Origin: Romanomermis culicivorax
Lineage: Eukaryota > Nematoda > Enoplea > Mermithida > Mermithidae
Length of the DNA: 64,000 bases
Reading direction: 5' to 3'
NCBI GenBank assembly: GCA_963922205.1
Contig: CAWUHX010000046.1
Location: forward strand, 1,116,001 to 1,180,000
Made by a program: the position numbers and the translations under genes. Under the pieces are notes generated by a model, which was given only the letters and a program-made list of their open reading frames with translations, searched no databases and was not told the DNA's origin. This document shows, piece after piece, positions 1 through 53,416 of the stretch (position 1 is the stretch's first letter; every line of letters starts with the position of its first letter).

Positions 1-8
1 CCCCCTGA

Positions 9-7690: not shown

Positions 7691-7699
7691 CAGTGTAAC
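7691..7699. repeat. 9-bp target-site duplication (CAGTGTAAC), left copy
   Basis: CAGTGTAAC occurs here and again at 8683-8691, immediately outside the two ends of the inserted element. A 9-bp duplication is typical of Mutator-like (MULE) transposition. Confidence 0.85.
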
Positions 7700-8682: not shown

Positions 8683-8691
8683 CAGTGTAAC
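8683..8691. repeat. 9-bp target-site duplication (CAGTGTAAC), right copy
   Basis: Exact second copy of the 7691-7699 sequence, after which the host gag frame resumes. Confidence 0.85.
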
Positions 8692-8894
8692 TGCACAATC
8701 TGCCTACCCTGAGAAAGATATGACATCTTAGTATTCTGCACAGCTACCACTCACAAATGTCCATCAGACATTGTGCTACAGTATCCCACTGACCAGAATG
8801 TGGGCGATTTTCCAGTAGATATTCACAAGAGTAGCAGAACGAATAAAAAAAGTGAAATTCTAAGAAGAAGTTTCAGTCCAAAGCTAGGAACAAA

Positions 8895-9525: not shown

Positions 9526-9528
9526 TGA

Positions 9529-12447: not shown

Positions 12448-12692
12448 TAGTCTGTTTTTTATAAAATGCTCCCAAACAGAAAAGTAACATAAATCAGTAT
12501 TGTCGTCAAAATCGTTTACATAGAGCTCTTTCTGCAAAGTTTTTCGCTGGAAAAATTGTTAAAGGTTAGGTCAGTATGCTCACAAATTTCCAGTCTTATG
12601 TGATATATTGTTTATTAGAAAATCGTGAAAATCTGAAATACTACTTGCTTTCCACTTTCATTATTTAGAAACATTTAAAGAAAAACAGACTA
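12448..12692. mobile_element. TA-flanked MITE (TAGTCTG family) inside RT
   Basis: Ends TAGTCTGTTTTT and AAAAACAGACTA form inverted repeats of about 30 bp with mismatches. TA dinucleotides at 12446-12447 and 12693-12694 are the target duplication, as in Tc1/mariner-type elements. The 245-bp element has no ORF. It splits the RT codon series of copy B exactly between two codons. Related copies in this window are at 31957-32202, 32203-32422, about 34026-34276, about 36004-36251 and 56403 to about 56633. Confidence 0.88.
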
Positions 12693-12694
12693 TA

Positions 12695-13497
12695 GGACTA
12701 GCAACCTTCTATAGAAAATTCATTCCGAGTTTTGCAGATATTGCTCATCCTCTTCACAAACTTCTCCGTAAAGCCATACTGTTCCATTGGACAGATTCTT
12801 GTGAGCAAGCTTTCCAAATACTCAAGCAGGCATTAATTACAGCTCCCGTACTGGCTTACCCTGACTATAGTAAACCCTTCATCATCAAAACTGATGCAAG
12901 TAAAGATGCTCTAGGAGGGGTACTTGCTCAAATTCACAATGATAATGAAAAGCCAATTGCGTACATCAGCCGAGCATCAAGCAAGCATGAAAAGAAAAAG
13001 TAATTGAATTAGGGGCACTTGCTATTGTCTGGGCAATAAAGACCCTCCGGCCTTACTTTTATGGTCAGGAATGCATCCTTGTCACAGATCACGCACCACT
13101 GCAGTACATTTACAAGAATCCATCTACCAGCTTGAGATTGGCAAGATGGAAGATGGAGCTGTTGGAATACAATATCTCTATTAAATACAAACCAGGAAAG
13201 AATAACAATGATGCAGATGCACTGTCTCATATCAGAATGGATGATGAAAAAATAAATGTGATACAAGGAATCGAAGAAGATGATAGTTCAAATGAAAAAA
13301 ATGACAATGGAAGTCACAACCTGGTTGCCCAAGAGCAAAGAACTGATAAATTTTGCAAATGGATAATTGATTATCTTGGGAAAGCATACATCGATCCTAC
13401 AATGTCTGCTGAAGATACCCAGTTCTTATTGGCTGAAGCCTCTCAGTATATGATTTTGGACAATCTACTGTATCGTAGAGGTAACAAAGATAACTGA
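12695..13497 (+). pseudogene. Copy B RT end, RNase H and linker
   Basis: It picks up directly after the MITE with the RT connection (G-L-A-T-F-Y-R-K-F) and runs into RNase H: T-D-A-S near 12891, then a frame change at about 13000, after which E-L-G-A-L-A-I-V-W-A (about 13008), T-D-H-A-P-L (about 13084) and D-A-D-A-L-S (about 13212) follow in a frame that is open to 13497. The metal-binding residues are present, but the frameshift separates them. The last 90 codons are the acidic linker leading to integrase, closed by TGA at 13495. Confidence 0.85.
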
Positions 13498-14590
13498 TCA
13501 CCTCGTATAGTGGTGCCACAGTCCCTGACAACAAAAATATTCAAATTGTATCATGAAGACAAGTTTAGTCTTCATTTAGGATTTACGAAAATGCTCACCA
13601 AAATTTGCAAAAGATTCTATTGGCACAACCTGAATAGTGTCATTCATAAGATGTGCAAGGAGTGTGTAAAATGCTTCTCCTACAAGCAACCAAGTCAGAA
13701 GACAAAAGTTCCAATGCAATCCGTATTGATCCCTGGGAATCCATTCTCAATGATTGCAGTTGATGTTATGGGTCCCTTGCCTCTCACAGAGCATGGTTTG
13801 TTTTAATGGACTACTTTATGAAGTGGCCCGATGTATTTGCAGTGAATAATGTCACAGCAGAGATAACAGCGAGACTTTTTGTAGAAAATATAGTTTGTCG
13901 CTTTGGTAGCCCACATCAAATCCTGTCTGACTGTGGTACAAATTTTACATCAAATTTATTTTGACAAATAGCACGACTTTGTGAAACGGAATAGAAACTA
14001 ACAACACCGTACCACCCCCAAAGTGATGGTATGGTAGAATGATTCAATTGCACACTGACAAATATGCTGAAAATGTATGTTTCTACGACCTACAATAATT
14101 GGGATGCTCACTTACCATATGCCCTTTTTGCCTATCAGACATCAGTCCATGAATCTACCAAGGAAACACCCTTCTACTTACTGTACGGACGTAATGCCCG
14201 GATTCCTGGAGATGAAAACTTCGCAGTGTACCGAAGCCCCTATGTTGAGAGCTTTTCATCATACAAAGAAGAGCTTCAAGATCGACTGACTGTGGCATGG
14301 CAAATAGCATCAGAGCACATACAACAAGCGCAATGACTGCAGAAAACCCAATATGATAAAACAGCCAAGATTGTGATCTTCAAGAAAGGAGATATAGTTT
14401 ATTTGCATAATCCAACCATAAAGCAAGGGAAGTCCCCCAAGTATACCATATATTGGTATGGACCATATCGAATCATGAAGATGGACCCGCCCAATGCCCA
14501 CATATGACTTATAACAAAGCCAGGTAGTCCCCTCAAAGTTGTTCATGTCAATCGGTTACAACTATTCACCACAGAGACCAAGCCTTTGTG
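13498..14590 (+). pseudogene. Copy B integrase, multiply broken
   Basis: The HHCC zinc domain is readable (His near 13549 and 13576, C-K-E-C-V-K-C near 13657-13675), followed by the first catalytic Asp in D-V-M-G-P-L-P (about 13762). A frame change at about 13800 puts the rest in other frames. The second Asp is in S-D-C-G-T-N-F (about 13927). The D-G-M-V-E motif with the catalytic Glu (about 14025-14040) is followed at once by a stop. More stops lie at about 13963, 13993 and 14335. The C-terminal region ends at 14589 with a TGA, 30 bases before the polypurine tract. Gypsy-type DDE integrase, not functional. Confidence 0.82.
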
Positions 14591-36589: not shown

Positions 36590-36593
36590 CTTG
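36590..36593. repeat. Target-site duplication CTTG, left
   Basis: CTTG directly precedes the TG of the left LTR and recurs directly after the CA of the right LTR (45903-45906). A 4-bp duplication fits gypsy-type integration. If the LTR is taken to end at GTTAC, a 5-bp ACTTG duplication is possible. Confidence 0.75.
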
Positions 36594-37496
36594 TGTAACG
36601 ACCAGATTTGTGTGAGGTACTTTACTTGGACCAATCGGTCGATACGGTGGGGTAAATAACGGGACGGGGGCGCGGGCGAACGGTTACAATAAACAACGGG
36701 GATCGACGGTCGCTTGAACGTCGACAATAAACGCGCTTCGAATTAAAATACGGACGGGGGCCTCGGTTTAAATGCTTTCGAATAGTCGGCCGCTTGCAAA
36801 TGTATAAAAACGGGGCGAGCGCGGAAGTCAAAACGGAGAAAACCACAAAAAATAAGAATCAGAAATAATGATCAAAATCACGCTTTGCTTCTTCTTTTAT
36901 ACGGCGATTTTGGCCACTCCCTGGACGCTGCGGGAGGTCGAGCTTCTGTCCATCTTCTTCCGCCAATCGTCGTTTCCGGCTACGCTTTTTATGCTTTCTT
37001 AGTTACGCCTCTCTAACGCTTTTCTGGTACCGTATGCTTTCTGTGCTTCACTTGCTTTCTACGGTGGGCTTGGCCACACCTCTGTGCTTCTGTGCATGCT
37101 TCCTGTATCGGTTTCTCTGTATACACATGTTTTGTGGGGCCGCCGCTACTGTTACACTTGAGACTACTGTACGGCGGGGCTTCTACGTATTTTACTGTGT
37201 GCAGGTGTTGTTTACGATTTTTACGGGGGATTACGGTAGCTGTGGAATGTGTAGTTTAGTGTAGGTTCTAGGGGAACAGCTGCCGTTTGTGCAAATTAAT
37301 TAGGGCATCTTAATTGGGCTACCGGGGTGTGAACGGATCAAAATAAAGTACTTCACGTAATTTTGTAGGAATGTTTGGGTGTGAATCCCAGACATCCTTG
37401 AGACGATAAAATGTGAAAATAAAATAATATCTAATAAATGTCTATTACATACAGTATGCTACATGTTTACAGTACTGCTTTAGCAGGTACGTTACA
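36594..37496 (-). repeat. 3' LTR of copy C
   Basis: 903 bp, TGTAAC at the left and GTTACA at the right. It aligns base for base with 45000-45902 (offset 8406) except position 36648. The 76-codon ORF inside it (37034-37264, opposite strand) is identical in both LTRs, has no known motif, and is probably chance. Confidence 0.95.
36894..36901 (-). promoter_or_regulatory. TATA box in 3' LTR of copy C
   Basis: TATAAAAG on the minus strand, same context as in copy A. In a 3' LTR it would drive only outward transcription. Confidence 0.55.
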
Positions 37497-37509
37497 TTTC
37501 CCTCCTTCC
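37497..37509 (-). other. Polypurine tract of copy C
   Basis: On the minus strand GGAAGGAGGGAAA abuts the TG of the 3' LTR, ideal for plus-strand priming. It lies 18 bases after the ORF stop. Confidence 0.85.
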
Positions 37510-37527
37510 GGAGTTGAACGTCCTCGT

Positions 37528-40500
37528 TCAAGGCTTTCGAGGTTGAGGAAGGGTGGGGGTAGACTCGATAGTTGCTTGCCGAGGGTAGAAAGGGGTTGTC
37601 TCGTTTACATGCACCGTAAATGTAGTATTCTTATGGGGGTGTTTGAGTGTAACGTTGGGGTACATGAAGTTTGTAACTGTATAGGGACCGTTTTGGCGAG
37701 GGCGGAATTTGGGAGTCAACCCTTGTTTACACGAATGATTTTTATAAAGAATAAGATCACCTGCCTTGTAATGTATGTTCTGAGCATGCTTGTTATACTG
37801 ACGGGTATAGTGGGCTTGGGCTTTTTGCAAACTTTTCTGCACGGTTGAGAGTGCTTCTGTAAAATACGATTTTACACGAAGGGCGTAATCATCTAAATCT
37901 ACCATGTAGGATGTGGGGAAAAAATTTAAAGCTGCATCTGACGGCAGATTGGCTTGCCTACCGTGGAGTAATTCAAATGGGGGATATGAAGTGCTATCAT
38001 TTTTATGAATGTTGATCGAAAAAACGGCGTACGGGAGATAAGTATCCCAATCAGTGTGATTTGAATTGATGTACATGCGGATACGGGTGGCTAAGGTTTG
38101 GTTGCAACGCTCAACTTCCCCATTGGCAATGGGATGGTATGGGGTAGTGTGAATTTTCTGAGTATTGCATAAACTGGTGATCCGTGAGAAAAGATCGGAT
38201 ACGAAATCGGTGCCACGATCACAATGGATGATTTTTGGGGACCCATGACGACAAACAATTTTGGTTACGAATAACTTGGCGATAGTGGCTGCGGTGATGT
38301 CAGGGGTCGGGAATGCCTCTACATACTTTGTGAAATAATCGATGAAAACGACAATGAACCGGTTGCCATCTTCAGTGAGGGGTAACGGTCCCATGCAATC
38401 AACACCAACTCGATCAAATGGGCCAGTTGGCTGAATTGGTACCAAGTTTGCATGCACTTTGTGTCTAAGAGCTTTCTGTGTCTGGCATGGGTGGCAAGTT
38501 TTGCAGTAACGTTTGATATCACGGCTCATTTGGGGCCAAAAATATTTCTGTCTGAGCAAGTGTAAAGTTTTCCTGGCCGCAAAATGACCTGTGAATTTGC
38601 TGTCATGATGTGAGGCGATGAGATGCTGGACTTGCGACTTGGGAATGTATAGTTTTGCCTGTTTGTCGACTATACGGAAGAGAATGTTTTGATGCACTGC
38701 GAATTTGATCAGAGTAAGGGGGTGTTTTCGGACGATTTTTGCTAAGATACTTTTGACAGTTGGATCAGTGCGTTGGAGTTCGGCAAAGTTTTTCTGTTGC
38801 TCTTCTTGTTCAGTTGCTTCGGCTTCCAAAACTGAATTAATAGTTGATATTTCGGGGCGGGTTTCTAATTGTTCAATATCAAAGGATTGTTTTGCTGTCT
38901 GTGAGGGGAATCGAGAGACTGCATCTGCATTGCGGTTAGCAGTGCCTTTCTTGGGTCGAATGTCTAGCTGAATACCAGAGAGGGCTAATCCCCAACGGGC
39001 AATGCGAGGGGACGGGTTTTCCTTTTGTAATACTGCCTGAACTGCTGTGTGGTCAGTGTGTACAATAACATGCTGCTGGAAAAGATAAGGGCGGAAATAC
39101 TTGACAAATTCGACTACTGCAAGGGTTTCCAACTCAGTGATCGGATAGTTGCGTTCTGCGGGTTTCAATGTGCGGCTCCCAAAAGCAATGGGGCGATCCT
39201 GACCTTTATTATCTAGTTGACTGAGAATGGCGCCAATTCCGAGTTTTGAGGCGTCAGTTTGCAGAATAAACGGTTTTGTGAAATCGGGATGCTGTAGTAT
39301 TGGGGCATGGATGAGTAATTCTTTGAGTTTAGTGAATGCGTTTTGCTGTTCGGGGCCCCAGGAAAATTCGGAATTCCTTTTGAGTAGCGATGTGAGTGGG
39401 CTAGAAACTTGGGAGCAATTTGGGATGAATCTGCGATAATACGAGGGTAGGCCAAGGAATGACTTAACTTCTTTTGAGCTTTTGGGTGTGGGTATGTCAT
39501 AAATGGCCTGTACCTTATGGGGATCTGGTGAAATGCCTTGCTGAGAAATGACGTGGCCTAAGTATTGGACTTGGGGCTGGCAGAATTTGCATTTTTGTAT
39601 GTTTAGCTTGAGGCCTGCTTGTGAGAATCGGGCAAGAATAGTGTCTAAACGTTCCAGCATTTGGGCATGGGAGTCTGCGAATACCAAAACATCGTCGAGA
39701 TACACAAGGCATGTGTTCCATTGCAGACCCGAAAGAATAACATCCATTAACCTTTGGAATGTGGCTGGGGCATTGGTGAGTCCAAAAGGAAGGTAATTGA
39801 ATTGATACTGGCCAGCTGAGCAATTGAATGCAGTTTTTTCTCTGTCTGCTTGTGCTATGGGAATGGAATAGTATGCATTGGATTGGTCAAGAGAGGTGAA
39901 ATATTTCATTCCACGGAGGGTGTCTAGAATTTCGTCTATACGGGGTAAGGGGTAGGTATCTTTTTTGGTGACTTTGTTGAGGCCTCTAAAATCAATGCAT
40001 AAACGATGGCCTCCATCTTTTTTGGGAACTAAAACTGTGTTGGTACACCATGGAGAATTGCTTTGGCTTATGACACCTGCTGCTGCGAGTTGCTCAACTT
40101 CTGCTTGTATGATTTGCTTTTCCTTTGGGGAAGTCCGATAAAGTTGTCTACGTACAGGTTGGGAGCCATTGGTGTCAATTGTATGTGAAACGAGGGTGGT
40201 TCTGCCTACATCCATTTTGGATTTAGCATATAATGTGGGATACTTCGATAAGGCGCGTAGGAGTTGCGTTTTTTCGGTTTCTGTGAGGTCACTGGAGGTC
40301 AAATTGACGTTTTCTTTTAACCATGTGAATGTATCAAAACGGTTGGGCTGGTTTTGCGTTGAAGGGGTTAGATTAGCGGGAGTATTGTGTTTTGGGATGT
40401 AACAAGAGACTGTGCCAATGCATGTTCCAGGATAAAGAATTTGAGCTGTTTCTTGTGTGTTTAGGACCGATATGCGTATGCGACTGTTTTGGTTTTCAGA

Positions 40501-43500
40501 GATACAAGCTGCGAAATGGACTTTGGGATTCTGTTTGGGTTTTGGGGTGAATTCAAGCTGTTTGACCTGTAAGTACGATTTGGGCAAGGGGACAGTAAAT
40601 TCGGTTACTGTACGGGGTGGTAATTCTAATTTCTCATCTAGGTAAGTTCCACCACGAGTTGAAAGAGGGCTATATTCGAGGCCATCACAGGGTAGTATAA
40701 CATTGCCAAATTTGACCTGTGATTTTTGATTGTTGATAGTGTATTCCGAAAATCGACTGAGAAAGTTTTTGCCTAGAAGGATGTCTGCTGTGCAATCTTT
40801 TTGGACATGGACCATGATTGTTTCCTGGATTGTTTGAGCTGTTACTGTGACAAAAGTGGTTCCTACAAAGTGAATCGGAAGGTTATTTGCTGCTTTTGCT
40901 TGGACTAGCGGGGGTTTCATGTCTAACTGTAAAAGTTGAGCGATTCGGGAATCAATGAGTGAGTAAACTGCACCAGTGTCAATCATGCCTTTTGTGATTA
41001 ATTTGCCATTAAGTGTGATCGGAATGTGAGGGGTATGTTTCTCAGGTACATTTTGGGGTGGCTTGTTTGATCCAGATTGGTGAATTTGATTAATGAGTTC
41101 GATTGCAGGAGTTCGGGGGGTATCAATATCGACAAGGACGTATTTCTGCTGTGTTTGTGCCCCACGACGATTAGCTAATTCTAAAAGAGCATGGCCGAAT
41201 GATGGGGGAATGGTCTCATGTAAATGTCTGTTGTTTGATGGTATTTCGTATGCATGTTCGTTTGTGGTATGATGCTTTGGAGAGGGGAAGTATTTTCGAA
41301 GAACGAGAAACGAATAAAAGACGCCTGCAATAACTACAGTAATAACGGCGAGGTTGATAATGATTTGCAGGGGTCCTTTGAGTAAATTGTTTAATCCGTC
41401 CGTGAGACTTTGGGTGGTACCGGTTATTACATGTTCTATGCCTTGACCGGCACCAGAGAGTGTATTTCCGAGTGCTTGGCCAGTGCCTGAGATCATGTTG
41501 TAAACTGTATCGGAATTGAGAGACATTTGGGCGGTGTAATTGACGAGTTTTTGGACAACGTTTTCGAGTGTGTGAGTTTTGTAAATGTATTGTTTCAAAA
41601 AGAGTAAGTTGGTTGAAATAGTTGCAAGTTGATCGTGAAAAATGGCGGGTGTATTAAAATGGAAAAGGGAAAAATTCTGGTTCCAGACAATTTCTAAAGG
41701 TAAATTTGTGACATGCGGGGATCCTGTTTCACTTACCCATGTATTATTCTGTTTGTAAAGGGCTACATGCATGTGATGGCAGTCAACGGTTTGTGAGAAA
41801 GGGGTCAAATCGTTGCCTCCTGGATTTGAAAACATGAGTTCGGTTCCTACGAAAATGGGTAAAAGTTTGTAGCATGTTTGGTTGACTTTATGGTTGTAAA
41901 AGACTTTGGATGCGTTTACCTGCTTGCAGGGCCAGACTGTGAGGGCTTCTCCTGTAAATTCTGCTATGATGTCGGTTCTCTGTAGGAATGCACGCGCTCC
42001 AAGGGTTGCATCAAGACGTAAAATTTGCCATATGAGATCAAGGTGACGCTGTGCCTGTCTGCATAATTCACTCCATACATTTTTGAAATTTTGAATTTCG
42101 AATTCCTGTATTTTGTCTGCTAGATAGTTTAGTTTTGCATTGATGGGTTCAAAATCATCAAAATCGTATAGTGTAGTATGAGTTTGGTTGGTTTTTGGGG
42201 TTAAAAATGCGTTACGATGTGGTGTGCTTTTGTCTAATTGTACAATAATGCCTTGTTCGGTTAGAATGCTGTCTTGGATTTCTGGGCAATTGGGGTTTGA
42301 AAAGAGTGTGTTTTTAACCGAGAATGCACCTTGTAGCTCTTCTATTATCATGTGTGTTTGCGTGAGTTTGATGGGATGTGTATTTTTGTATTCGAAAGGG
42401 CATAAGTTTTCAAATGCTGTTTCATTCCAGATAATGGATCCGTCAGCTGTAACACAATGACCTGATGTCGGTTTGCATGACCCTAGGTCACCTAATGTAC
42501 CTGTCATAGATTTTCCATTCCAAGATGCTATTTGTCCTATTTCTATGATGACGTTAGTGACTGAGGTACAATGGTCTGTACAACACCATGTGTATTCTAC
42601 GCTTAGGGAGTTATTTGTTGACCAAAATCCTGGTTGGGTTTCGTATAATTTTTGACCGTTGTGTTCTTTGTCTATAACGATTGCCTTACAAACATGTGGG
42701 GTTAGATTTTGCATTTCGGTTTGGTCGAAGACAATACCTTTTGATCCAAAAAATCCTGTATTAGTACAAATTTTGCGTTTGCGAACACTGCATTTGTATG
42801 CGTCTGTAATGTGGGGCTTAGTGGAGGGGATATAGATTTTTCCGAATGTTTGTACGGGTTTGTCTACTGTGGAAGGGGGCATGCATGATACAAGTTTTGG
42901 TATGCTGACTGAGTGACCGCTCAATGAAGTTCCACACATCTGAAATTGGGCACTACACGATGTGGGGATTATTATACAAAGAAAAATACAAAACATCGGC
43001 CAATAGAATGTTTTAGTGGAGGCGGCGGGGCACTGTATGTTTTCGTTGTGGCCGGTTTGGTGTTGGGGCTTTTGGTGTTGTCGTTTTGCGATTTTGAGCT
43101 GAGGGGGTGGCCGGTTTGCAGTCTGAATATTCTGTAAAAGTTTGGAATTTGAGTTATGGGATGGGGTTTGGGCTTGCTTACTTGCGGGGGTCGGTAGCAA
43201 TGTTTGGCGGGGGCGAAATTGGTAGGGTTCGGGGGTCAGGCCATGGAGAAGGGACAACAAGTTGCGGCCTGTTTTCGATGGGGTTTCGGGGGCGGTGGGC
43301 GGCGTAGTGTCTTGCTTTCGGGGGATCTTGTAGCCTACGGGGATGGTGGGCGGCGATTTTTCGATTTTTGCGGCTTCAGGCGTGGGGGGTGGTGACATGG
43401 CGCACCAATCGGGTACGTCCAGATCAAGGACGTATTCCTCACTGCGGCGGTGGGTGTTGGGCATGATAGTTCCTAAAGTAGTCTGAGGGCCGTTAGTTAT

Positions 43501-44757
43501 GGCGGGTAATTTTGAGTAAAATGCGGGGTCGTCAATGTCCATGAGGGGTTGGGGTTGCCTGTACTCAATGCAATTTTGAATATTACGACTCTGCTGATTT
43601 GGGCAATGCCTGCTTGTATGACCTCTCTGCTTGCATATAAAACATTGAAAATTGGAGTAGGGTTTTGAAGGGCAGTTATCTGATCTATGTCCTGTTTGGG
43701 AGCAGTGGATGCATGGGCTTTTACAATCACGTGTACTGTGATTATTACGGAAACAGATTTCACATGATTTTCGGGTGCCTACTGATTTACAATTACGAGC
43801 TACGTGTCCGATTTGTCCACACTGGAAGCATGTGGGTTGCCTGGGGGTGGTATTATTCCTGTAAGCATTATTCCTACTGTAAGTGTTGTTACCGAAATTG
43901 TTGTAGCTACTTTGTTGTGGGGGTTGGGGTTTTTGTTTGATCTGCAACTGTAAATCCTTTACTTGTTGTTCTAACTGATGCAAAAGATCCTGTTGGTCTG
44001 TGTTTTTGGTGAGGGAAAAGATGGGTTCGGGTTTTGGGGGTATGAAGGGAAGGACATTAGATTTTAACTCATTTCTAAGAATTTGCTGTTCAATGTAAGC
44101 TGCTTCGTCTGACATTTCTTTTAGAGTTGCGAACCTTCTATACTTAATTGCTTCCCTGATTTCGTTTTGCATGCCTTCTACAAAGAGGGGTTTTATGATC
44201 ATTTCTCGTGCGTCTGTGTTAAAATTAGGGTAGGCAAGGGTTGCGAGATGTTCTAGATCAAATAAGAATTCCGTTACTGTTTCTGACCGCTTTTGTTTTC
44301 TTTCGCGTAAGAATTGTTGATGTAGCTCATTATCTCTATTGTTTGGGAAAAATGCCTGTAATGCGACTTTATACTGCTCGTATGTGTGGGGAGGGTTTTC
44401 GGAATTTGCTAAACTTTTGAATTTTGCTAACGCGGCTCCTCCTAAATGAATTTCTAAACATGCCAACTTTAACTGTACGTCTGTATCTTTCATGCCTTGG
44501 AGTGCCATGAATTGTTCTAATCTTTTGTTCCATTCACCAAAATGTTGGGTCACGCCGCCCGTGAATACTGTAGGTTTCGCGTAAAAATTATTTGCCATGT
44601 TATTACGAATGTTTGCTGTTCTTAGATCATCTATTAGGGTAGGGTTTACTGTATTCTGATTCAATTGTGTGCGTAGGGTACGAAAATGTTCTGAAAACAA
44701 ATCGTTTATCTGTTCTCTAACGATTTCTCCTAAATGATCTTGCGTTTGGTGGGTCAT
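37528..44757 (-). CDS. Gag-Env-Pol polyprotein of copy C, 2409 aa
   Basis: A single open frame from ATG 44757 to stop 37528, starting 242 nt inside the 5' LTR. Domains: Gag capsid (about 40-240), Gln-rich linker, four zinc knuckles (Cys310 to Cys385), Pro-rich spacer, signal-like hydrophobic segment (584-602, likely cleaved after Ala603), Cys-rich ectodomain with many N-x-S/T sequons, TM (1132-1153), tail, aspartic protease (D1260-T-G), RT (Y1686-L-D-D1689), RNase H (D1835), integrase (HHCC, then D2120, D2180, E2216, the last pair 35 apart). All catalytic residues are present. Gag builds the particle and Pol copies and integrates. The Env-like part should cross the membrane, leaving Gag and Pol cytosolic. 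No stop or frameshift lies between Gag, Env and Pol, so separation must come from proteolysis, splicing or internal initiation. The glycoprotein's origin is not proven. Confidence 0.93.
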   Translation of the reverse strand: MTHQTQDHLGEIVREQINDLFSEHFRTLRTQLNQNTVNPTLIDDLRTANIRNNMANNFYAKPTVFTGGVTQHFGEWNKRLEQFMALQGMKDTDVQLKLACLEIHLGGAALAKFKSLANSENPPHTYEQYKVALQAFFPNNRDNELHQQFLRERKQKRSETVTEFLFDLEHLATLAYPNFNTDAREMIIKPLFVEGMQNEIREAIKYRRFATLKEMSDEAAYIEQQILRNELKSNVLPFIPPKPEPIFSLTKNTDQQDLLHQLEQQVKDLQLQIKQKPQPPQQSSYNNFGNNTYSRNNAYRNNTTPRQPTCFQCGQIGHVARNCKSVGTRKSCEICFRNNHSTRDCKSPCIHCSQTGHRSDNCPSKPYSNFQCFICKQRGHTSRHCPNQQSRNIQNCIEYRQPQPLMDIDDPAFYSKLPAITNGPQTTLGTIMPNTHRRSEEYVLDLDVPDWCAMSPPPTPEAAKIEKSPPTIPVGYKIPRKQDTTPPTAPETPSKTGRNLLSLLHGLTPEPYQFRPRQTLLPTPASKQAQTPSHNSNSKLLQNIQTANRPPPQLKIAKRQHQKPQHQTGHNENIQCPAASTKTFYWPMFCIFLCIIIPTSCSAQFQMCGTSLSGHSVSIPKLVSCMPPSTVDKPVQTFGKIYIPSTKPHITDAYKCSVRKRKICTNTGFFGSKGIVFDQTEMQNLTPHVCKAIVIDKEHNGQKLYETQPGFWSTNNSLSVEYTWCCTDHCTSVTNVIIEIGQIASWNGKSMTGTLGDLGSCKPTSGHCVTADGSIIWNETAFENLCPFEYKNTHPIKLTQTHMIIEELQGAFSVKNTLFSNPNCPEIQDSILTEQGIIVQLDKSTPHRNAFLTPKTNQTHTTLYDFDDFEPINAKLNYLADKIQEFEIQNFKNVWSELCRQAQRHLDLIWQILRLDATLGARAFLQRTDIIAEFTGEALTVWPCKQVNASKVFYNHKVNQTCYKLLPIFVGTELMFSNPGGNDLTPFSQTVDCHHMHVALYKQNNTWVSETGSPHVTNLPLEIVWNQNFSLFHFNTPAIFHDQLATISTNLLFLKQYIYKTHTLENVVQKLVNYTAQMSLNSDTVYNMISGTGQALGNTLSGAGQGIEHVITGTTQSLTDGLNNLLKGPLQIIINLAVITVVIAGVFYSFLVLRKYFPSPKHHTTNEHAYEIPSNNRHLHETIPPSFGHALLELANRRGAQTQQKYVLVDIDTPRTPAIELINQIHQSGSNKPPQNVPEKHTPHIPITLNGKLITKGMIDTGAVYSLIDSRIAQLLQLDMKPPLVQAKAANNLPIHFVGTTFVTVTAQTIQETIMVHVQKDCTADILLGKNFLSRFSEYTINNQKSQVKFGNVILPCDGLEYSPLSTRGGTYLDEKLELPPRTVTEFTVPLPKSYLQVKQLEFTPKPKQNPKVHFAACISENQNSRIRISVLNTQETAQILYPGTCIGTVSCYIPKHNTPANLTPSTQNQPNRFDTFTWLKENVNLTSSDLTETEKTQLLRALSKYPTLYAKSKMDVGRTTLVSHTIDTNGSQPVRRQLYRTSPKEKQIIQAEVEQLAAAGVISQSNSPWCTNTVLVPKKDGGHRLCIDFRGLNKVTKKDTYPLPRIDEILDTLRGMKYFTSLDQSNAYYSIPIAQADREKTAFNCSAGQYQFNYLPFGLTNAPATFQRLMDVILSGLQWNTCLVYLDDVLVFADSHAQMLERLDTILARFSQAGLKLNIQKCKFCQPQVQYLGHVISQQGISPDPHKVQAIYDIPTPKSSKEVKSFLGLPSYYRRFIPNCSQVSSPLTSLLKRNSEFSWGPEQQNAFTKLKELLIHAPILQHPDFTKPFILQTDASKLGIGAILSQLDNKGQDRPIAFGSRTLKPAERNYPITELETLAVVEFVKYFRPYLFQQHVIVHTDHTAVQAVLQKENPSPRIARWGLALSGIQLDIRPKKGTANRNADAVSRFPSQTAKQSFDIEQLETRPEISTINSVLEAEATEQEEQQKNFAELQRTDPTVKSILAKIVRKHPLTLIKFAVHQNILFRIVDKQAKLYIPKSQVQHLIASHHDSKFTGHFAARKTLHLLRQKYFWPQMSRDIKRYCKTCHPCQTQKALRHKVHANLVPIQPTGPFDRVGVDCMGPLPLTEDGNRFIVVFIDYFTKYVEAFPTPDITAATIAKLFVTKIVCRHGSPKIIHCDRGTDFVSDLFSRITSLCNTQKIHTTPYHPIANGEVERCNQTLATRIRMYINSNHTDWDTYLPYAVFSINIHKNDSTSYPPFELLHGRQANLPSDAALNFFPTSYMVDLDDYALRVKSYFTEALSTVQKSLQKAQAHYTRQYNKHAQNIHYKAGDLILYKNHSCKQGLTPKFRPRQNGPYTVTNFMYPNVTLKHPHKNTTFTVHVNETTPFYPRQATIESTPTLPQPRKP
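41287..43008 (-). other. Env-like glycoprotein domain inside the copy C polyprotein
   Basis: This covers residues 584-1157. Order: hydrophobic signal (F-Y-W-P-M-F...C-S-A), C-G-T-S-L-S-G-H start of the mature part, C-C-T-D-H-C block (about 731-736), G-S-C-K...G-H-C-V, helical region (about 880-915), conserved G-E-A-L-T-V-W-P-C and T-C-Y-K-L-L-P-I blocks, V-D-C-H-H, a Gly/Thr-rich stretch before the membrane (G-T-G-Q-A-L-G-N-T-L), then the TM. Copy B has the same blocks. No R-X-K/R-R site is seen at the place where copy B has one. From memory the G-E...C...C-Y...P...C...W layout recalls glycoproteins of chuvirus-like negative-strand RNA viruses. That is a weak inference and needs a profile search. 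Confidence 0.75.
43603..43830 (-). other. Four tandem CCHC zinc knuckles in Gag of copy C
   Basis: Residues 310-385 hold four C-x2-C-x4-H-x4-C units in a row (C-F-Q-C..., C-E-I-C..., C-I-H-C..., C-F-I-C...). Such knuckles bind the element RNA in nucleocapsid. One or two are usual in retroviruses and gypsy elements. Confidence 0.9.
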
Positions 44758-44975
44758 TCTTGGTTTACGATGAGATTTCTGCTTAAATGCTTCAATTTTT
44801 GCTTCACGCTGTATTCGTTTAAATGTGTCGCTTAATGCTTCGTTGGAGGGGGTTTCCAGTTTGCTTTCTACGAATACTGTCTTACTGTAGGAAATGATTA
44901 CTACTGTATTATCTAATGCTTCTAAATGCCCGGATAAGAGTACACCTAATTGGGGCAGGGAGTTCCACTGGTTAA

Positions 44976-44994
44976 CGTAACGGTACGGTCACCA
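44976..44994 (-). other. Candidate primer-binding site of copy C
   Basis: On the minus strand TGGTGACCGTACCGTTACG begins five bases after the 5' LTR. TGG matches the CCA end of a tRNA, as needed for minus-strand priming. The tRNA is not identified. Confidence 0.5.
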
Positions 44995-44999
44995 AAATA

Positions 45000-45902
45000 T
45001 GTAACGACCAGATTTGTGTGAGGTACTTTACTTGGACCAATCGGTCGATACGGCGGGGTAAATAACGGGACGGGGGCGCGGGCGAACGGTTACAATAAAC
45101 AACGGGGATCGACGGTCGCTTGAACGTCGACAATAAACGCGCTTCGAATTAAAATACGGACGGGGGCCTCGGTTTAAATGCTTTCGAATAGTCGGCCGCT
45201 TGCAAATGTATAAAAACGGGGCGAGCGCGGAAGTCAAAACGGAGAAAACCACAAAAAATAAGAATCAGAAATAATGATCAAAATCACGCTTTGCTTCTTC
45301 TTTTATACGGCGATTTTGGCCACTCCCTGGACGCTGCGGGAGGTCGAGCTTCTGTCCATCTTCTTCCGCCAATCGTCGTTTCCGGCTACGCTTTTTATGC
45401 TTTCTTAGTTACGCCTCTCTAACGCTTTTCTGGTACCGTATGCTTTCTGTGCTTCACTTGCTTTCTACGGTGGGCTTGGCCACACCTCTGTGCTTCTGTG
45501 CATGCTTCCTGTATCGGTTTCTCTGTATACACATGTTTTGTGGGGCCGCCGCTACTGTTACACTTGAGACTACTGTACGGCGGGGCTTCTACGTATTTTA
45601 CTGTGTGCAGGTGTTGTTTACGATTTTTACGGGGGATTACGGTAGCTGTGGAATGTGTAGTTTAGTGTAGGTTCTAGGGGAACAGCTGCCGTTTGTGCAA
45701 ATTAATTAGGGCATCTTAATTGGGCTACCGGGGTGTGAACGGATCAAAATAAAGTACTTCACGTAATTTTGTAGGAATGTTTGGGTGTGAATCCCAGACA
45801 TCCTTGAGACGATAAAATGTGAAAATAAAATAATATCTAATAAATGTCTATTACATACAGTATGCTACATGTTTACAGTACTGCTTTAGCAGGTACGTTA
45901 CA
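45000..45902 (-). repeat. 5' LTR of copy C
   Basis: 903-bp partner of 36594-37496. In the direction of transcription it starts at 45902. It ends GTTACA in front of the primer site. Confidence 0.95.
45300..45307 (-). promoter_or_regulatory. TATA box driving copy C
   Basis: TATAAAAG on the minus strand about 595 bases into the LTR, followed by an A/G-rich stretch. It is conserved in copy A, so it is the likely promoter of the genomic RNA. Confidence 0.65.
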
Positions 45903-45906
45903 CTTG
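45903..45906. repeat. Target-site duplication CTTG, right
   Basis: Matches 36590-36593. Confidence 0.75.
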
Positions 45907-47139
45907 TCTCGAAAAGTTCCAAATGACGTTTTTGTTTTCTTTTCCAACTCTTTTTTTTCTAACTCTTTTTTGACAATTTAAAAATGGCTTGAAAGTGTAA
46001 AATAGGAGATACAAAAAATTATCCATACCGAGTTATACAGTACTGCCTCCCACATAAATCTATGATTAATGGAGTTACACATGGGTCAATGCGGCATTGC
46101 AAATGAAGAACATTGCAAATGAAGAATCGAAACAAGAAAGAAGTCAAAATGTCCTACGTGATTCAAGAAGTCGTGTTTTATGGAAAATGTAGTAGTATCA
46201 GATTATACCATATTTATAAATAGATTAATATATTTTTATTGAATAAAAATAGTATAACATTTTAAGATTTAGAGCCGAAAAGTTTTGCAATGGTTAATTT
46301 TCAGTCGATTTTACTCCTTTGTTTTATCATCGCAGGTATAACTTTTTTTGAAAATTCAGACCAAAAAACAGCAGACATTTTACATACTGTGAAAATTTTA
46401 CTTTTCTTTGCACCGTCCAGCTTCAACTTTTGATTATGCTGAATCTTGTCAAGTGGGCTCAACTGTCCCCAGCAGGAACAAAGCGGCGTCCGCAACGGCC
46501 AACCATGGCAGTCCGCTAGCAAATCGCGCATATGAGCAGCTTGTCGGGGATGGACATAGTCTATCTCCAGGTTGCGAAGAAATAGCCAAAGTCGACGCAA
46601 ATCGCGTCGACGCCGATTTGCATAGACATTGCGCATAAAAGCGTTGGTCGTCTATGCTTTTGGTCATTCTATGATTGTTTGTTTTATTTTAATAAAGACA
46701 AATCGGCGGGCCAGTAGGCCAATTTTTATATTTATTGTTTATATTATTTTGGTGGAGAATTTCCGCCTGAAATACAATGACCCTGGCCGGACATTCTTTG
46801 GATTACTCGCAGCAGAGGGAATGCAGGTTAGACCCCGGATTTCTGGAGTGCCACCCAGCATGTTAGTCTACATTTACAACTCAGTTCTCGGCCTGACTTC
46901 TAGGTTTGCCCTGGTTTGAAGTTACTTGAGCTCAGAGAGTTATTTTATCTTCTGCAGTTCTTTGGAACGAAAGCAGGAGATCTTTGTTGATTTTGATACT
47001 GACCGAACTGTTGCAAACTTATTCTACCTAAGGTTTCGGCCTGATTAGGTGAATTAGTGAGTGACTGATTAGGTCTATTTTTGATACCAATCCATTTATT
47101 TATATTTCTCAACCTCACCCAAAGTCTCACTTCAACAAG
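45907..47139. other. Non-coding; possible leader or LTR remnant of copy D with GC-rich island
   Basis: 45907-46300 is AT-rich with nothing recognised. 46430-46640 is clearly GC-richer and holds overlapping ORFs on both strands: minus 46301-46636, 111 codons, Arg/Leu-rich; plus 46408-46638, 76 codons. Neither matches a family I know. A perfect hairpin (GTCGACGC-AAATC-GCGTCGAC) is at 46591-46611. The rest (46640-47139) may be the 5' LTR of copy D, since a CA-ending segment (CACTTCAACA) runs into a primer-site-like TGG at 47140. Without a second LTR this cannot be shown. Confidence 0.4.
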
Positions 47140-47157
47140 TGGTGGCTTCTGACTCTC
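47140..47157 (+). other. Candidate primer-binding site of copy D
   Basis: TGGTGGCTTCTGACTCTC directly after CTTCAACAAG. It begins with TGG like tRNA-primed sites and sits seven bases before the gag ATG region. The cognate tRNA is not identified. Confidence 0.4.
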
Positions 47158-47163
47158 AAAGTA

Positions 47164-48966
47164 ATGGAAAATCAGAGGCAAACTCAAGGAGTCAAAAAAC
47201 CTATTGGTTTTTATAGAGAATTGGGAGGTTACAAAATGAGTAAAGACAATCTAGGTGGCCTCAAGAATTCGGGTTTGCCCAGAACACCACCGGGAAAAAA
47301 GGCCCGTGATACAGAAAAGTTAATTGCCCTAACTTCAGCTGAAACTTCAGCTGAAGAGGACAATTGCTCAGATCATAGGCCTTTATTGGTGGAAAATGAA
47401 GGCAATCGACCTACGACCTCGACAGCTGTCGAAAGAGAGGACGACAACGCCATATTATTGTCGAATGAAGATCAAATTTTTAAAATTCCATCCTCGACAA
47501 ACCTCCCGAAGAGAGGCAAATATTTACAACTGCCTATTACGGGACTGGCGCATCCATTACCGAAGATGAACATTCCGGTATTGGATCAACATCAGCGCCG
47601 GCCAACAAATAAACCCGCTCAATTATTCGACACTTACCATCGATTATATTGGGATAATGAGCGGGAGGAACATCGCGAAAATCCTCGAAAGAGCTCATTG
47701 GAGGATAAACTGGACCAAATTATGAACAGGTTAGATGTTTATGATAGCATTGCTAATACAGGTTCACAGAAAGCCAGTAAGGCAAATGAACCGAAGCAAA
47801 GCAATGCTGGTTGTTTGGAACAAGGTGGTGCATTGAAGTTTGGGCAGGCCCAGGAGGAGTTAGCATGACAAAATGATGGTATCACTCTTCAGCAAGACTG
47901 TAGACGGAAAGACCAAAAGTCACGTCTCGGTCCTAAGGAGCAGTTTATGCCTCATTTGCCCACTACCTCAAAAGTGGAGCAGAGAGTGAGTAGTTGTGGT
48001 TTTGACGAAGGTGTAAAAAACCCGAGTCTGATAAATCCAACTATCTCACAACAGAGCAGTTGTATTAGGGGAGAGACCCCAAGTGTCAGGCAGCAGGTTA
48101 TGCCTACAATGATTCCGATTGATCCAGCTTTATGGGTCAATCCGGCTCAAGTAGGCTCAACTGTCTATGACATTGAAAGGGCAATCAAACCAAAATTACT
48201 GCAATCTGACATGCCAAGTAAACAGGTTCTTGCTTTCCTAGTGGAGCTAGAAGGTGAGTTTCGAAAGAATACTCCCGATGAGGTGAAGCTGGAAGCATTA
48301 ACCGGTTTGTCAAGGGACTTGCCGAAAGAATTGGCTGAAGAGTCAACAACATATAGGGAGGCCAGAGACAAGATTTTGAATTATTGTGCTCCAGACTGTA
48401 ACTTGGACATGCTCAAACAGGATTTATTGGATATTGAACAGGAACCCGATGAAGCAGCAACCAAATTCTTAAAAAGGGTTAGAGCACATGTGAATCTCGT
48501 TTACCAGAGTGAAACAAAAGAGTTCAAAAACAAAGTGATCATTGAAACCTTTTTCTATAGAAGTTCTTTAACTTATCAATTAGAACTGCAGAAAGACATG
48601 GCAAAATTCAAAAATTGGTATGATCTTTCGCAGGCAGTCTATGAGATAGAGTTAAAGTACTGGAATGCGATTAGAACATTTGGGCCAAGAGAGCAGCCGG
48701 TGATGATAAATACGGCACAAGCGGAAATTGCTGAGGAGCAGCAAGCCGATGTGAATGTAATCCAAAGGCCTTATGAAAGTGCCCAAAAGCGCAATAAGGA
48801 CTTTAGAAGACCAAACACAGAAAGGCAAACTCCAATGCAATCTTCGCAAAATCAATTGATAGATATAACAGATGATGAAGTACTTGAAGTACCTCTGCAA
48901 CAGGCCATAATGCCTCGGCAACAGCCTGTTGAGGAGCCAAAACTCCCTCATGGTGGCTTTATCTAA
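47164..48966 (+). pseudogene. Copy D gag with internal TGA
   Basis: From ATG 47164 the frame runs to a TGA at 47866-47868, then stays open in the same frame to 48966, so this is one gag of about 600 codons with one nonsense codon. The second part (first ATG 47947, 339 codons) carries the gypsy capsid-like region: a P-S-K-Q-V-L-A-F-L-V-E-L-E-G-E-F-R-K stretch, later a Q-E-P-D-E-A-A-T-K-F-L-K-R-V-R segment, then L-Q-K-D-M-A-K-F-K-N-W-Y-D-L. The last codons are shifted by one frame: a frame from ATG 48950 continues the protein into the zinc-finger part. The TGA is followed by CAA, which could allow some readthrough, but decay is simpler. No Env is seen in this element. Confidence 0.78.
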
Positions 48967-51067
48967 AGAATTTATCAAAATGGCACAATGTTATGAAGAG
49001 ATTAGGAACTCGACCAAAGCTCAAGAGGAAGCCATAACTGCTTCAACTCAGAAAGTTGATAAAGCGAAAGTGAAAGGTCAACAAGAGGTTCAGCAGTGAA
49101 AATGGTGTACTTACCACGAAAATAACACTCACAACACGATTGATTGTAGAACCTTGAATTTTTATAAAGGTCTACAAAACCGTGGAAGGGGTGGAAATAG
49201 TGGAAGAGGCTTTGGAAGAGGAAATCCTAGAGGAAATTTTGGAAATTTCCGAAGTAGAGGAAATTTCAGAGGTAATTTCAGAGGAAATTACGGAGGAAGT
49301 AGAGGAGGTTTTGGTAATGAAGGCGAAAGGGGAGCTTATCAAGTTTCGTTTCCTGATGACGAGGCGGAAAATTTGCAAGAATATGCCGAGTTTCAGGAAT
49401 ACGTAAAGTTGAAAAAGCTCAGGGAGCAGATGAGATTGTTACAGGTTACCACCCAGCTGATGTTACCAGGACCAAATCTAATGGACCAACAACCAGTAAT
49501 CGCAAATCAGAGTTCAAATACCCTGTTGGTTCCACAAAAGGTAGTTAGTCCATCGCAAGCCTCGGGGCAGACAGACCAACCGCCGACTAGTGGTGTCAAC
49601 AGTGTACAGCAAGAACCAATGATGGAGATGAAGATGAAGTTGTGTGGCCTGCATAATTGTGCCATGGAGAAAGAGGAGAATGTGCCAGAAATGGAATGCA
49701 GTGCCGAGTATGGTAGAAAGGCAACTGCACAGGAACTGGATAATATGTTAGCAAGATATCCTAGAACTCAGCCATTTCACATCAAAGTAACTGTGTGTTC
49801 TACTACTGCAAAGGCACTGATTGACATGGGAGCTCAGTGTTCGGTGATGTCCGGTGATTTCTTGAAAAAATCACTTGGACTGGAGTATACAGCGTACCCT
49901 AAGATCCTAAAAGTCACTGTCGCCAATGGTAAAGTAGTTAGTGCACATGGTTACGTTCAGTTTCAAATGCAATGTGATTATGGCCGTTTTCCAGTTAAAG
50001 CTATCATAATACCAGGTTCCGCAGAGGATTTAATATTGGGAACAGACTTCCTAGCACATCCGGAAGTCAATACAGTAATAGATTTTGGAAAAGGTTCAAT
50101 GACCATGATGGGTGTAAAGAAAAGTATTGATTTGTTAACATCTGATAAGAAAGCAATTCCAATAGTTGGGATGCATAATCCGATGATAGCAGAATCAATA
50201 CAAGAACATTCTATTGAAGAAGATCAATGTTTTACAATCGAGCAACTGGAAGATCTAGTTCCAGTAGTGGCTTGTAATAGAATTTACATTCCACACGGAA
50301 CAGATCAGCTAGTGAAAGCTAAATTGTGGAATGAATCCTCGGCAAATAGAATAAATGGAATCATCATAGAAGGAGATGATTCAGAAACGAGATTCAGAAT
50401 AGATGATACTATAGTTGACGGTTCAAAGGAGGACTTTGTATTGATGATCTCCAATAATACGGGTTCCAGTTGCCTGATAGAACCTAATCAAGTTCTTGGC
50501 TACTGTAACTCCGTATTTCGGGGAGAATCAAGTGTATCAATTTTGCAAGCAGGAAATAGTGGAGAAAGTAGCCTAGAGGGCATTTTTGATGCCAAAGAAT
50601 CAAAATTTGATGGAGTTGTGTTTCTGGAAGCATTGTACAAAATGACCTCTAAAGCTACAGTGTCCGAGGAACAGAAAGAGATGGCGATACAGCAACTCGT
50701 GAAATACCGGGATGTATTTAGCCTACCTCATGATCCTCTAACAACTACTCCCCATCTTACTTGTAAAATTGATACAAGTGATGCTAGCCCTGTGGCAAAA
50801 CATTACTACAGAGCTGCCATTGAACGGCGACCATATATCAGACAACATGTGCAAGAAATGCTAGACAAAGGAGTCATAGAGCCATCAAGATTGCCCTGGG
50901 CGGCGCCATTATTCCTAGTAGGGAAGAAAGATGAGTCGCTCAGGCCGGTTGTTGATTTCAGAGGCTTGAACGAGGTCACGAAGGATGATCGATATCCAAT
51001 ACCAAGAATGGATGATTATCTGGACTGCCTCGGGAGAGCAAGATTTTATACGACTCTTGACCTTTAG
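48950..51067 (+). pseudogene. Copy D: zinc finger, RGG-rich tail, protease and RT start
   Basis: In the frame of 48950 a TGA (49097-49099) precedes a W-C-x2-H-x4-H-x4-C zinc finger at 49103-49144, a variant seen in some gypsy Gag proteins. A Gly/Arg/Asn-rich RGG-type stretch (about 49175-49320) and an acidic, Leu/Lys coiled region follow. The protease active site at 49823-49831 reads D-M-G instead of D-T/S-G, and its L-I-L-G-T-D-F motif is normal. RT begins at about 50770 (K-G-V-I-E-P-S, L-R-P-V-V-D-F-R-G-L-N) and ends at TAG 51065-51067, in place of the usual Gln of L-D-L-Q-S-G-Y. The recorded start at 49154 is a TTG with no special standing. Changed protease and stops make it non-functional. 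Confidence 0.85.
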
Positions 51068-53292
51068 TCTGGTTATTAGCAAGTGCCAATGGAAGAAGGC
51101 AGTAAAGAAAAGACTGCTTTCTTGTGTCAAGAAGGGTTGTTTCAGTTCAAAGTAATGCCCTTTGGACTGAAAAACGCACCAGCTGAATTCCAGAGGATGA
51201 TGGAAAGAATCCTTCATCCTCATGTTTGGAAGATATGTCTAGTTTATATAGACGATATCATAGTGTTCTCGAATACGTTCGAGGAACACATAGAAAATTT
51301 GAAATTGGTCCTGGATGCTCTGAGACCAGCCCAGCTTACACTTAAACCGGAAAAATGCGAATTCCTACCAAAGAAGGTACATTTTCTTGGTCATATTTTG
51401 GATTCTAATGGAATTTCGCCCGATCCGAAAAAAGTGCAAGCTATTAAGGAGTTTGAATTACTGGACTCGGTCAAGCATATGCAAAGGTTTCTCGGAATGC
51501 TCCAGTGGTGTAAAAAATTTATACCACATCTGGCAAAGCACGCAGAACCTTTGTATAAGCTGAGGGCCAAGAAAAGGAATAAATGGCTCGTCATAGAGGA
51601 TCATTACAAAGCATTTAATGCTTTGAAAGAAGCACTGGTATCGGTTCCATTTCTTAGGTACCCAGTAATGGATGGCTCAACCCAGTTCATTCTGCAAACC
51701 GATGCCAGTGGAACAGCATTAGGGGCTGTTCTGTATCAAGAGTCTGGAGACGACAAGTGGGTCATAGCATACAATAGCCGTGTGCTAAAAGAGGACGAGA
51801 AAAAGTGGTGTGCAACCGAAAGGGAGTGCCTCGTGATTATCTACGGCCTCAAAATCTACCGGAACTATTTATTGGGGCAGAAAGTATTGATTAAGACAGA
51901 TCACAGACCACTGTTATCAATGAAAGTCAATACTACAACAAATGACAAATTGAAACGGTGGTATGCCATCATAAATCAATACAACCACAAGTTAGAATAC
52001 GTGCCCGGTAGACAAAATGCTATGGCTGACTTTCTCTCCAGAAAGGATGAGCCAGAGGATGTGGTGAAATCACCACCAAAGTGGGAAAGTATGTTCAAAT
52101 CGGATGTTGTTTCCTCTGATGTCAAAGGAATAAAAGAACAAGAACAGCAACAAATTTCCTTGGTGGCCGAGAGGAACAACATCTCCGAGGAGAATAAATC
52201 CTACAAGGATAAAAAGGAAGGAGAGGATGCTCGAATTAGTCCTGAGGACGAAAGAGAGCATTTTAAAGGAGTAGAAGCGGTAGTAACCCGAAGCAAAGTT
52301 TGTGTTTCAGAAAAAGTGCAGAAAGAAAATCAGGAAACTGATAAATCTGTGATACCTAAGAAACAAGACAATGTGCAGTGGTTATACCCGAGAAAGGAGG
52401 AGGAATTTGATAAATCGGGAACATCAGGAGAAAAAGAGATATCTATTGGCCTGATCCCAGATGACTTGATGAGCAAACTGCAAAATGCAGACGAAAGCTT
52501 AAAGCCAATCTGGGATAGATTAGGTGCAAGTAGCACAACGAAGTATCACACTGGGTTCTACGAAGAAAATGGTGTACTGTATAGGGAAACTGAGGCAGAA
52601 AGCGAAGACCAATTGGTCGTACCCGCAAACCTCAGGGACTCTGTACTGCATCAGCATCATGGTGCTGTAATAATGACACACCAGGGTTTCAAAAGAACTC
52701 TGAGTGTCATGAAAAGGCATTATTGGTGGTCTGGCATGGAAAAAGATGTCAGGGAATGGATAAAATACTGCGTTGTATGTCAAATGGCAACTGCAGGAAA
52801 GCCATCCATTCCTCCGTTGATACCCATTGTGCCACAAGGTCCATTTGACATTGTATACGTGAATATAGTAGGAATTTCGCCTTTGGGAGAAAGAATGCCC
52901 TATGTTATAGTTTTTCAGGACTATTTCACAAAATGGGTTCAAGCTGAAATGATCCCAGATCAATCAGCAAATTCAGTTGTGAATGCGTTCTTAGAAGCTA
53001 TAATATTTAGGCATGGAACACCAACGAAACTCCTAAGTGACAATGGATCTTGTTTTATTTCGGATTTAATGAAATCAGTTTGTGATTTATTAGAGTGTAA
53101 GAAGATCTTCACTACTGCTTATCACCCTCAGGGTAATGGTATGGTAGAGAGGTTCAACCAAACTCTAATAAAACAACTGAGAAAAGTAGCTATCACTGAA
53201 CCCGATAGCTGGCCAAGATATCTCAAATCGGTGGTCTTTGCCTATAATGCTACCCCACACGCAGTGACGAAGGCATCGCCATTTGCATTGTT
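51068..53292 (+). pseudogene. Copy D: RT, RNase H and truncated integrase
   Basis: Same frame as the upstream segment, interrupted again by TAG at 51077-51079 in place of the Trp of the S-G-Y-W motif. From ATG 51083: RT box Y55-I-D-D58 (51245-51256), RNase H D207 (51701), T-D-H-R-P-L (about 51896) and A-M-A-D-F-L-S (about 52020). An acidic Lys/Glu-rich insertion of about 130 residues (about 52080-52470) follows, then integrase HHCC (about 52650-52800). The first catalytic Asp reads Asn (N594, 52862), while D653 (53039) and E689 (53147) are normal, 35 apart. At 53293 the coding sequence breaks into repeat R1. The last residues of the open frame (about 28) belong to R1. The rest of integrase and the 3' LTR are not in the window. 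Confidence 0.88.
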
Positions 53293-53416
53293 CACGGTGT
53301 TTTCAGTCTGCCATTGGGTGTCACGTGACCGCCTTCCCCAAAAATCAATACTCCTCGGATACTTTTGGTACTTCTAAATCTTTTTTGTGATTTACTGTAG
53401 TCAATTAAGTTTCAAA

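Follow-up and report, generated by a model that had tools for sequence, protein, structure and literature searches.

How could a single polyprotein with a signal sequence in its interior give rise to an enveloped particle? The question is raised by an intact long terminal repeat (LTR) retrotransposon of the mermithid nematode Romanomermis culicivorax, in which an envelope glycoprotein (Env) lies between Gag and protease within a single open reading frame (ORF). The element fills positions 36594-45902, on the minus strand, of the 64,000-nucleotide stretch of contig CAWUHX010000046.1 analyzed here (the window). Env capture is a route from retrotransposon to retrovirus, and in the published cases compared below env comes after pol; a gag-env-pol order that is under selection and has been amplified repeatedly means that another solution exists.

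One frame from Gag to integrase

The element is bounded by a 5′ LTR (45000..45902, minus strand) and a 3′ LTR (36594..37496, minus strand), direct repeats of 903 bp that differ at 1 of 903 positions and end in TGTAACG...CGTTACA, and it is flanked by the target-site duplication CTTG (36590..36593 and 45903..45906). A putative primer-binding site starting with TGG is found 5 nt past the 5′ LTR (44977..44994, minus strand), and a putative polypurine tract, GGAAGGAGGGAAA, adjoins the 3′ LTR (37497..37509, minus strand). Between them, ORF scanning and Pfam identified a single stop-free frame of 2409 codons (37528..44757, minus strand) that runs from Gag through Env, protease, reverse transcriptase (RT) and RNase H to integrase, and is the sole frame of more than 800 codons in the window. 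Since only 31 bases separate the end of this frame from the 3′ LTR, there is no env downstream of integrase. A 213-bp repeat was also observed (window 31982-32415 and 36031-36243): two of its copies are separated by 221 bases (84%), and a third, weaker one (64%) is near the left edge of the element.

The preliminary description of this DNA had proposed a gag-env-pro-pol order in one 2409-codon frame, and had listed four zinc knuckles, a signal-like segment, a Cys-rich ectodomain, a transmembrane segment, a DTG protease, a YLDD RT, RNase H and integrase; motif, hydropathy and Pfam analyses recovered every one of these, the frame at its exact coordinates. Pfam was run on four separate pieces of the protein (residues 1-583, 584-1157, 1158-1300 and 1301-2409). 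Gag (residues 1-583; 43009..44757, minus strand) comprises a Retrotrans_gag region and a variable linker past about residue 400, and its piece matched zf-CCHC (8.5e-10) and Retrotrans_gag (2e-5) above cut-off and Ty3_capsid (5.5e-4) under cut-off. The four CCHC knuckles (residues 310-385; 43603..43830, minus strand) fit the motif CX2CX4HX4C and start at residues 310, 332, 349 and 372. Following Env, an aspartyl protease was matched at residues 1245-1291, with DTGA at 1260 (40885..41025, minus strand); its score (3.1e-4) is under the curated cut-off, in a piece that ended at residue 1300. RT (residues 1577-1737, YLDD at 1686; 39547..40029, minus strand; RVT_1, 1.1e-38), RNase H (residues 1800-1927; 38977..39360, minus strand; 4.8e-39) and the zinc-binding and core domains of integrase (residues 2038-2209; 38131..38646, minus strand; Integrase_H2C2, 5.9e-21, and rve, 2.2e-8) complete the protein. 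The protease-RT-RNase H-integrase order of Pol, the Ty3-type Gag with CCHC knuckles, and the short target duplication with LTRs of the TG...CA type are those of Ty3/gypsy elements (Metaviridae). In place of a BEL/Pao pol, RVT_1, RT_RNaseH_2 and Integrase_H2C2 were matched, and no BEL/Pao-type model appeared in the Pfam results up to E=1.

Env begins with an internal, signal-peptide-like segment at residues 588-607 (42937..42996, minus strand). Hydropathy places a hydrophobic segment at about 583-607, ahead of the ectodomain, and by eye such a stretch precedes the Env ectodomain in 15 compared sequences. The ectodomain (residues 608-1123; 41389..42936, minus strand) is followed by a predicted transmembrane anchor (residues 1124-1157; 41287..41388, minus strand; hydropathy peak 2.40), and 16 Cys and 8 N-glycosylation sequons are found between residue 608 and the anchor. 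The piece spanning residues 584-1157 belongs to the Monjiviricetes_fusion family (PF24664; E=2.1e-18, 66.1 bits, cut-off 27). Up to E=1, its other Pfam matches were herpes Glycoprotein_B (gB), at 16.7 bits and under its cut-off of 43, and one weak unrelated family; no class I Env, of the baculovirus F or the retroviral type, was found in that range. A structure model was built from an alignment of eight rows (predicted local distance difference test, pLDDT, 62.8), and an earlier five-row model (pLDDT 50.9) was set aside. The predicted structure has the gB-like fold of a class III fusogen: Foldseek returned herpesvirus gB in PDB (E=6e-18) and rhabdo-like, nyami and chu-like glycoproteins in BFVD. 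PDB sequence searches with residues 584-1157 gave no match, nor did a PHROGs search, and a viral contig collection held no relatives. A non-viral origin of the protein was considered and ruled out by the Pfam profile and the predicted fold. Profile and structure searches of these residues had been set beforehand as the means of refuting an Env-like glycoprotein between Gag and protease, and what they returned was viral fusion glycoproteins. Profile and predicted structure thus identify residues 584-1157 as a class III fusogen of the monjiviricete/gB type, apparently captured from a virus. This class, and the membership of the element in one of several families, go beyond the preliminary description.

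Copies, divergent families and selection

Could the arrangement be peculiar to this locus? The genome (359 Mb, 595 contigs) was searched with the Env piece and the best 76 of 4209 candidates were scored, so that the resulting counts are lower bounds biased towards good copies. The Env stretch is stop-free in all 76 matches (98-100% identity), and for 50 of them the surrounding open frame reaches or exceeds 2409 codons. Ten copies were read from Gag to protease and all ten are open throughout; they were taken from the top of the 76, with one shorter-frame copy skipped, and lean to the intact. The copies are independent insertions: both LTRs were read in four of these ten, and each of the four has its own 4-bp duplication (ACGA, GTGA, TTTC and ATGT), with 10, 3, 2 and 4 LTR mismatches and 11, 0, 0 and 1 gap positions, respectively. 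Some matches are evenly spaced and resemble head-to-tail arrays (C122:529097 and 537506; C293:390075, 397532 and 404985; C180:404, 8769 and 17134). On C122 the matches are 8409 apart, nearly the 8406 of the focal element minus one LTR, and neighbours there may share an LTR.

The order also recurs in divergent families. A profile search of the genome with PF24664, in which the best 68 of 2320 candidates were scored, placed all 68 above the cut-off; none of 14 control genomes matched, a weak control in that those named are prokaryotes. Nine loci were mapped, two (L005 and L019) from a set chosen by RT and seven (L031-L037) from the PF24664 list, and in 9/9 Gag is followed by Env and then by protease and RT. 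The stretch read shows no break in L005, L032 or L033; the other six loci are interrupted. Relative to the focal element, the divergent-family loci show 37-61% identity in Env and 44-72% in RT. Twelve of the 20 RT-chosen loci have a Ty3-like Pol by match; Env is present in two of these and was not detected in the other ten. A hydrophobicity scan for a hidden Env in six frames (L001-L004, L007 and L008) from the other large single-frame Ty3 families of this genome, whose frames have 2011-2340 codons, found no pair of signal and anchor; in L002 and L008 the sole hydrophobic stretch is at the RT active site, and Pfam detected nothing ahead of RT except protease in L001-L003.

Among public proteins from outside this genome, P0002, P0003 and P0004 have the gag-env-pro-pol order, although P0003 ends in the RT region. 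In P0005, from Meloidogyne floridensis, Pfam identified Env and then protease, with a weakly matched Gag upstream (E=5e-4). Romanomermis belongs to the class Enoplea and Meloidogyne to the class Chromadorea; if P0005 does have the gag-env-pro-pol order, that order is therefore either ancient or was transferred from one nematode class to another.

The preliminary description had allowed that the locus might be a chimera of two elements and had called for a search for the same order elsewhere. A nested insertion, a chimera or an assembly artefact is ruled out by the recurrence of the order in the 76 scored copies and in the nine divergent-family loci, and by its presence in P0002-P0004 outside the R. 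culicivorax genome, and we regard the chance of any such origin as negligible.

Selection was measured over 11 copies of the focal family as the ratio of non-synonymous to synonymous differences per site (pN/pS). Env has a pN/pS of 0.044 (0.047 for the ectodomain), compared with 0.068 for Gag residues 1-400 and 0.077 for the protease part (1231-1300), and the regions on either side of Env are looser, at 0.283 for the Gag-Env spacer (401-583) and 0.191 for residues 1158-1230 past the anchor. Env is thus under strong purifying selection, with a constraint that matches that of the core proteins; the borders of Env, by contrast, drift. Such a pattern would be expected of a needed, separate module, and is by itself no proof of infection. 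With dozens of copies and purifying selection, chance is excluded as an explanation of the arrangement. The same values bear on the idea that Env is a decaying passenger, or a structural component with no fusogenic role. Although the middling structure model and a fusogen activity that is predicted only would leave room for this idea, the low pN/pS of Env and the retention of its Cys and core motifs among five compared sequences argue against it, and we consider it improbable.

An RT tree of 21 rows splits the 12 Env-bearing from the 9 Env-less rows by a branch with 100/100 support. The rows are elements of this genome together with P0002 and P0004, and the Env-less rows were hand-picked from 150 scored RT matches, so that the choice may have passed over relatives that lack Env but fall within the Env clade. 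Partial, split or truncated sequences (window copy A, window elements B and D, L018, P0003 and P0005) were omitted, and P0002 and P0004 are among the rows that drew a long-branch warning. Env and RT have diverged together, and their identities correlate across seven lineages (r=0.80, a value reached by 20 of 5040 permutations). The RT data fit a single Env capture followed by joint divergence of the putative fusogen with RT.

Expression and history of the internal envelope

How would an Env in this position be made? We consider it probable that the element is a recently active endogenous Ty3/gypsy retrotransposon with a captured class III fusogen inside one polyprotein, which is threaded through the endoplasmic reticulum (ER) and cleaved. 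The whole frame would be translated as Gag-Env-Pro-Pol, Gag being the first part to appear, on the cytosolic side. Residues 588-607, the hydrophobic segment, would then serve as an internal signal sequence through which the Env ectodomain enters the ER, and the anchor at 1124-1157 would stop transfer, leaving protease, RT and integrase in the cytosol again. Signal peptidase could cleave past about residue 607 and the element's own protease could cleave the cytosolic joints, so that a single membrane would be the common site of synthesis for Gag, Env and Pol. Env might in turn let particles exit and enter cells, including passage from somatic to germ-line cells or from one host to another. Basic residues precede the internal hydrophobic segment and also follow the anchor, and with this layout of charge the gag-env-pol order is topologically consistent.

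Several observations weigh against this threaded polyprotein. A polyprotein would yield Gag, Env and Pol in a 1:1:1 ratio, which would be unusual. Confidence in the Env model is middling (pLDDT is below 50 for 160 of its 574 residues; predicted template modelling score 0.42), Foldseek template modelling scores to gB are just 0.22-0.38, and fusion loops were not located in the model. The whole-chain root-mean-square deviation from postfusion gB is about 40 Å; with this deviation and the low scores, the resemblance to gB holds domain by domain. Finally, internal Envs are not grouped in the Env tree, where 6 of 14 inner branches are well supported: the label needs three changes, a number equalled in 500/500 shuffles, and the internal Envs are interspersed with P0006, the solo P0007 and the fragment P0008, none of which is known to be internal. 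P0006 is a 739-residue protein on a public contig of 5675 bases, with an Env 33% identical to the focal Env that follows an apparent BEL/Pao integrase tail (DUF5641, E=0.015, under cut-off), i.e., in the canonical order. P0006 hints that BEL/Pao and Ty3/gypsy elements have exchanged Env. Given this BEL/Pao-like tail and the position of P0006, P0007 and P0008 in the Env tree, it is likely that Env was exchanged with BEL/Pao elements at some point, in either direction.

Splicing offers another route to a separate Env and would also count against the threaded polyprotein. Env could be an optional exon, spliced out to give gag-pol, or a short 5′ exon could be joined to Env. In Caenorhabditis elegans, Cer1 splices part of gag to a distal ORF (PMC10309623; this and the papers cited below are drawn on in part). 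The leader of the focal element contains GTAAGA, acceptor-like sequences (CTTTTACAG at codon 540 and CCCCCTCAG at codon 551) lie upstream of the signal segment, and by eye there is no ATG from these sites to M588. However, strict donor patterns have a single match in the frame, at codon 1008 and within Env, and with no stop past Env an Env-first RNA would still read into Pol. Over the 11 copies, synonymous divergence is lowest at codons 551-750 (0.014-0.050 per site per 50-codon block, with many later blocks at 0.10-0.18). This is a weak hint of a signal, since values almost as low (0.040-0.059) are seen at codons 1-200, 301-350, 401-450 and 1051-1100; it may reflect an RNA signal, chance, or exchange between copies. 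Taken together, we think cis-splicing unlikely, although it is the strongest of the rival readings.

It is far less plausible that M588 serves as a separate start for Env-Pro-Pol, whether through internal initiation or through trans-splicing of a spliced leader. Nematodes trans-splice, and M588, at the start of the hydrophobic segment, is the sole Met in residues 481-606. By eye, however, an equivalent Met near the signal segment is missing in four of eight lineages (own31/32/37, own33/35/36, P0002 and P0003), and for this reason separate initiation is disfavoured.

The threaded polyprotein also leads to a wider proposal, put forward tentatively and at somewhat under an even chance. Nematodes may harbour a lineage of Ty3/gypsy retroviruses whose envelope forms an internal module threaded through the membrane, with Gag, fusogen and Pol anchored by their very synthesis, in equal numbers, on the two sides of one membrane. 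Such elements would need neither a spliced RNA for env nor a step that recruits Env to Gag, and the lineage would have diverged, along with its Env, into several families with many copies in the mermithid genome.

Neighbouring elements and known systems

Three other elements were identified by sequence match on the plus strand of the window. Another copy of the focal family, truncated at the start of the window, occupies 3..3581; it spans protease to integrase (94-96% amino acid identity) and has in-frame stops. A degraded element of a second Env-bearing family (6810..14495) reads gag-env-RT-integrase; its Env is 92% identical to that of L019, and protease was not detected in it. Near the focal element, a Ty3/gypsy element with an interrupted frame (47065..53377) had no detected Env. 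Elsewhere in the assembly, a COX1 stretch (C117:992573-993922, code 5) is 97% identical to that of R. culicivorax and 84% to that of R. nielseni; it is either mitochondrial sequence that was assembled with the rest or a copy in the nuclear genome.

How new is the arrangement? A search of open-licence papers, preprints excluded, found no description of a gag-env-pol order, which is no proof of its absence from the literature. The preliminary description had called the arrangement unfamiliar. That judgement holds for the internal position of env, but not for a single-frame polyprotein with a captured Env, which is known from Atlas virus with env last (PMC9094657). New here are the internal position of Env and its Ty3/gypsy partner.

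Atlas virus and other nematode belpaoviruses are the closest in design, as nematode LTR elements with a captured viral fusogen and a stop-free polyprotein (2828 residues, Gag-Pol-Env), but they have a BEL/Pao pol, env last, and a class II phlebovirus-like Gc where the focal Env is class III by prediction (PMC9094657). The RT motif of nematode BEL/Pao elements is YVDN (PMC9094657), in contrast to the YLDD of the focal RT, which thus departs from the Atlas/Tas type. Ascaris Tas and C. elegans Cer7 are likewise nematode elements, and one of them has weak similarity to gB (PMC9094657, PMC7642597); unlike the focal element, both are BEL/Pao with env downstream of the polyprotein. The two sources conflict, in the parts drawn on here, as to whether the herpesvirus-like env belongs to Tas or to a Cer element. 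The envelope-like protein of Roo, Tas and Cer-7 is placed downstream of the polyprotein (PMC7642597). Anakin, from mosquitoes, is likewise an LTR element with a chuvirus-type glycoprotein, but is BEL/Pao and not Ty3/gypsy (PMC7642597). In one survey, mostly of arthropods, the portion drawn on here gives no clear evidence of Gypsy capture of a chuvirus-like glycoprotein; two of the cases it lists with such glycoproteins are from nematodes, and many of the insect ones have Gypsy fragments next to them (PMC10084718).

Within Ty3/gypsy, C. elegans Cer1 is a nematode element with gag-pol uninterrupted by a stop, but it has an extra ORF past pol, whose spliced product, CERV, acts in RNA export and is not Env-like (PMC10309623). 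Insect errantiviruses are Ty3/gypsy elements whose env sits after integrase. Their Env is derived from baculoviruses (PMC12440569). The focal element departs from the errantivirus and retrovirus layout, with Env at residues 584-1157 and none after integrase, and it pairs Ty3/gypsy with a predicted class III fusogen.

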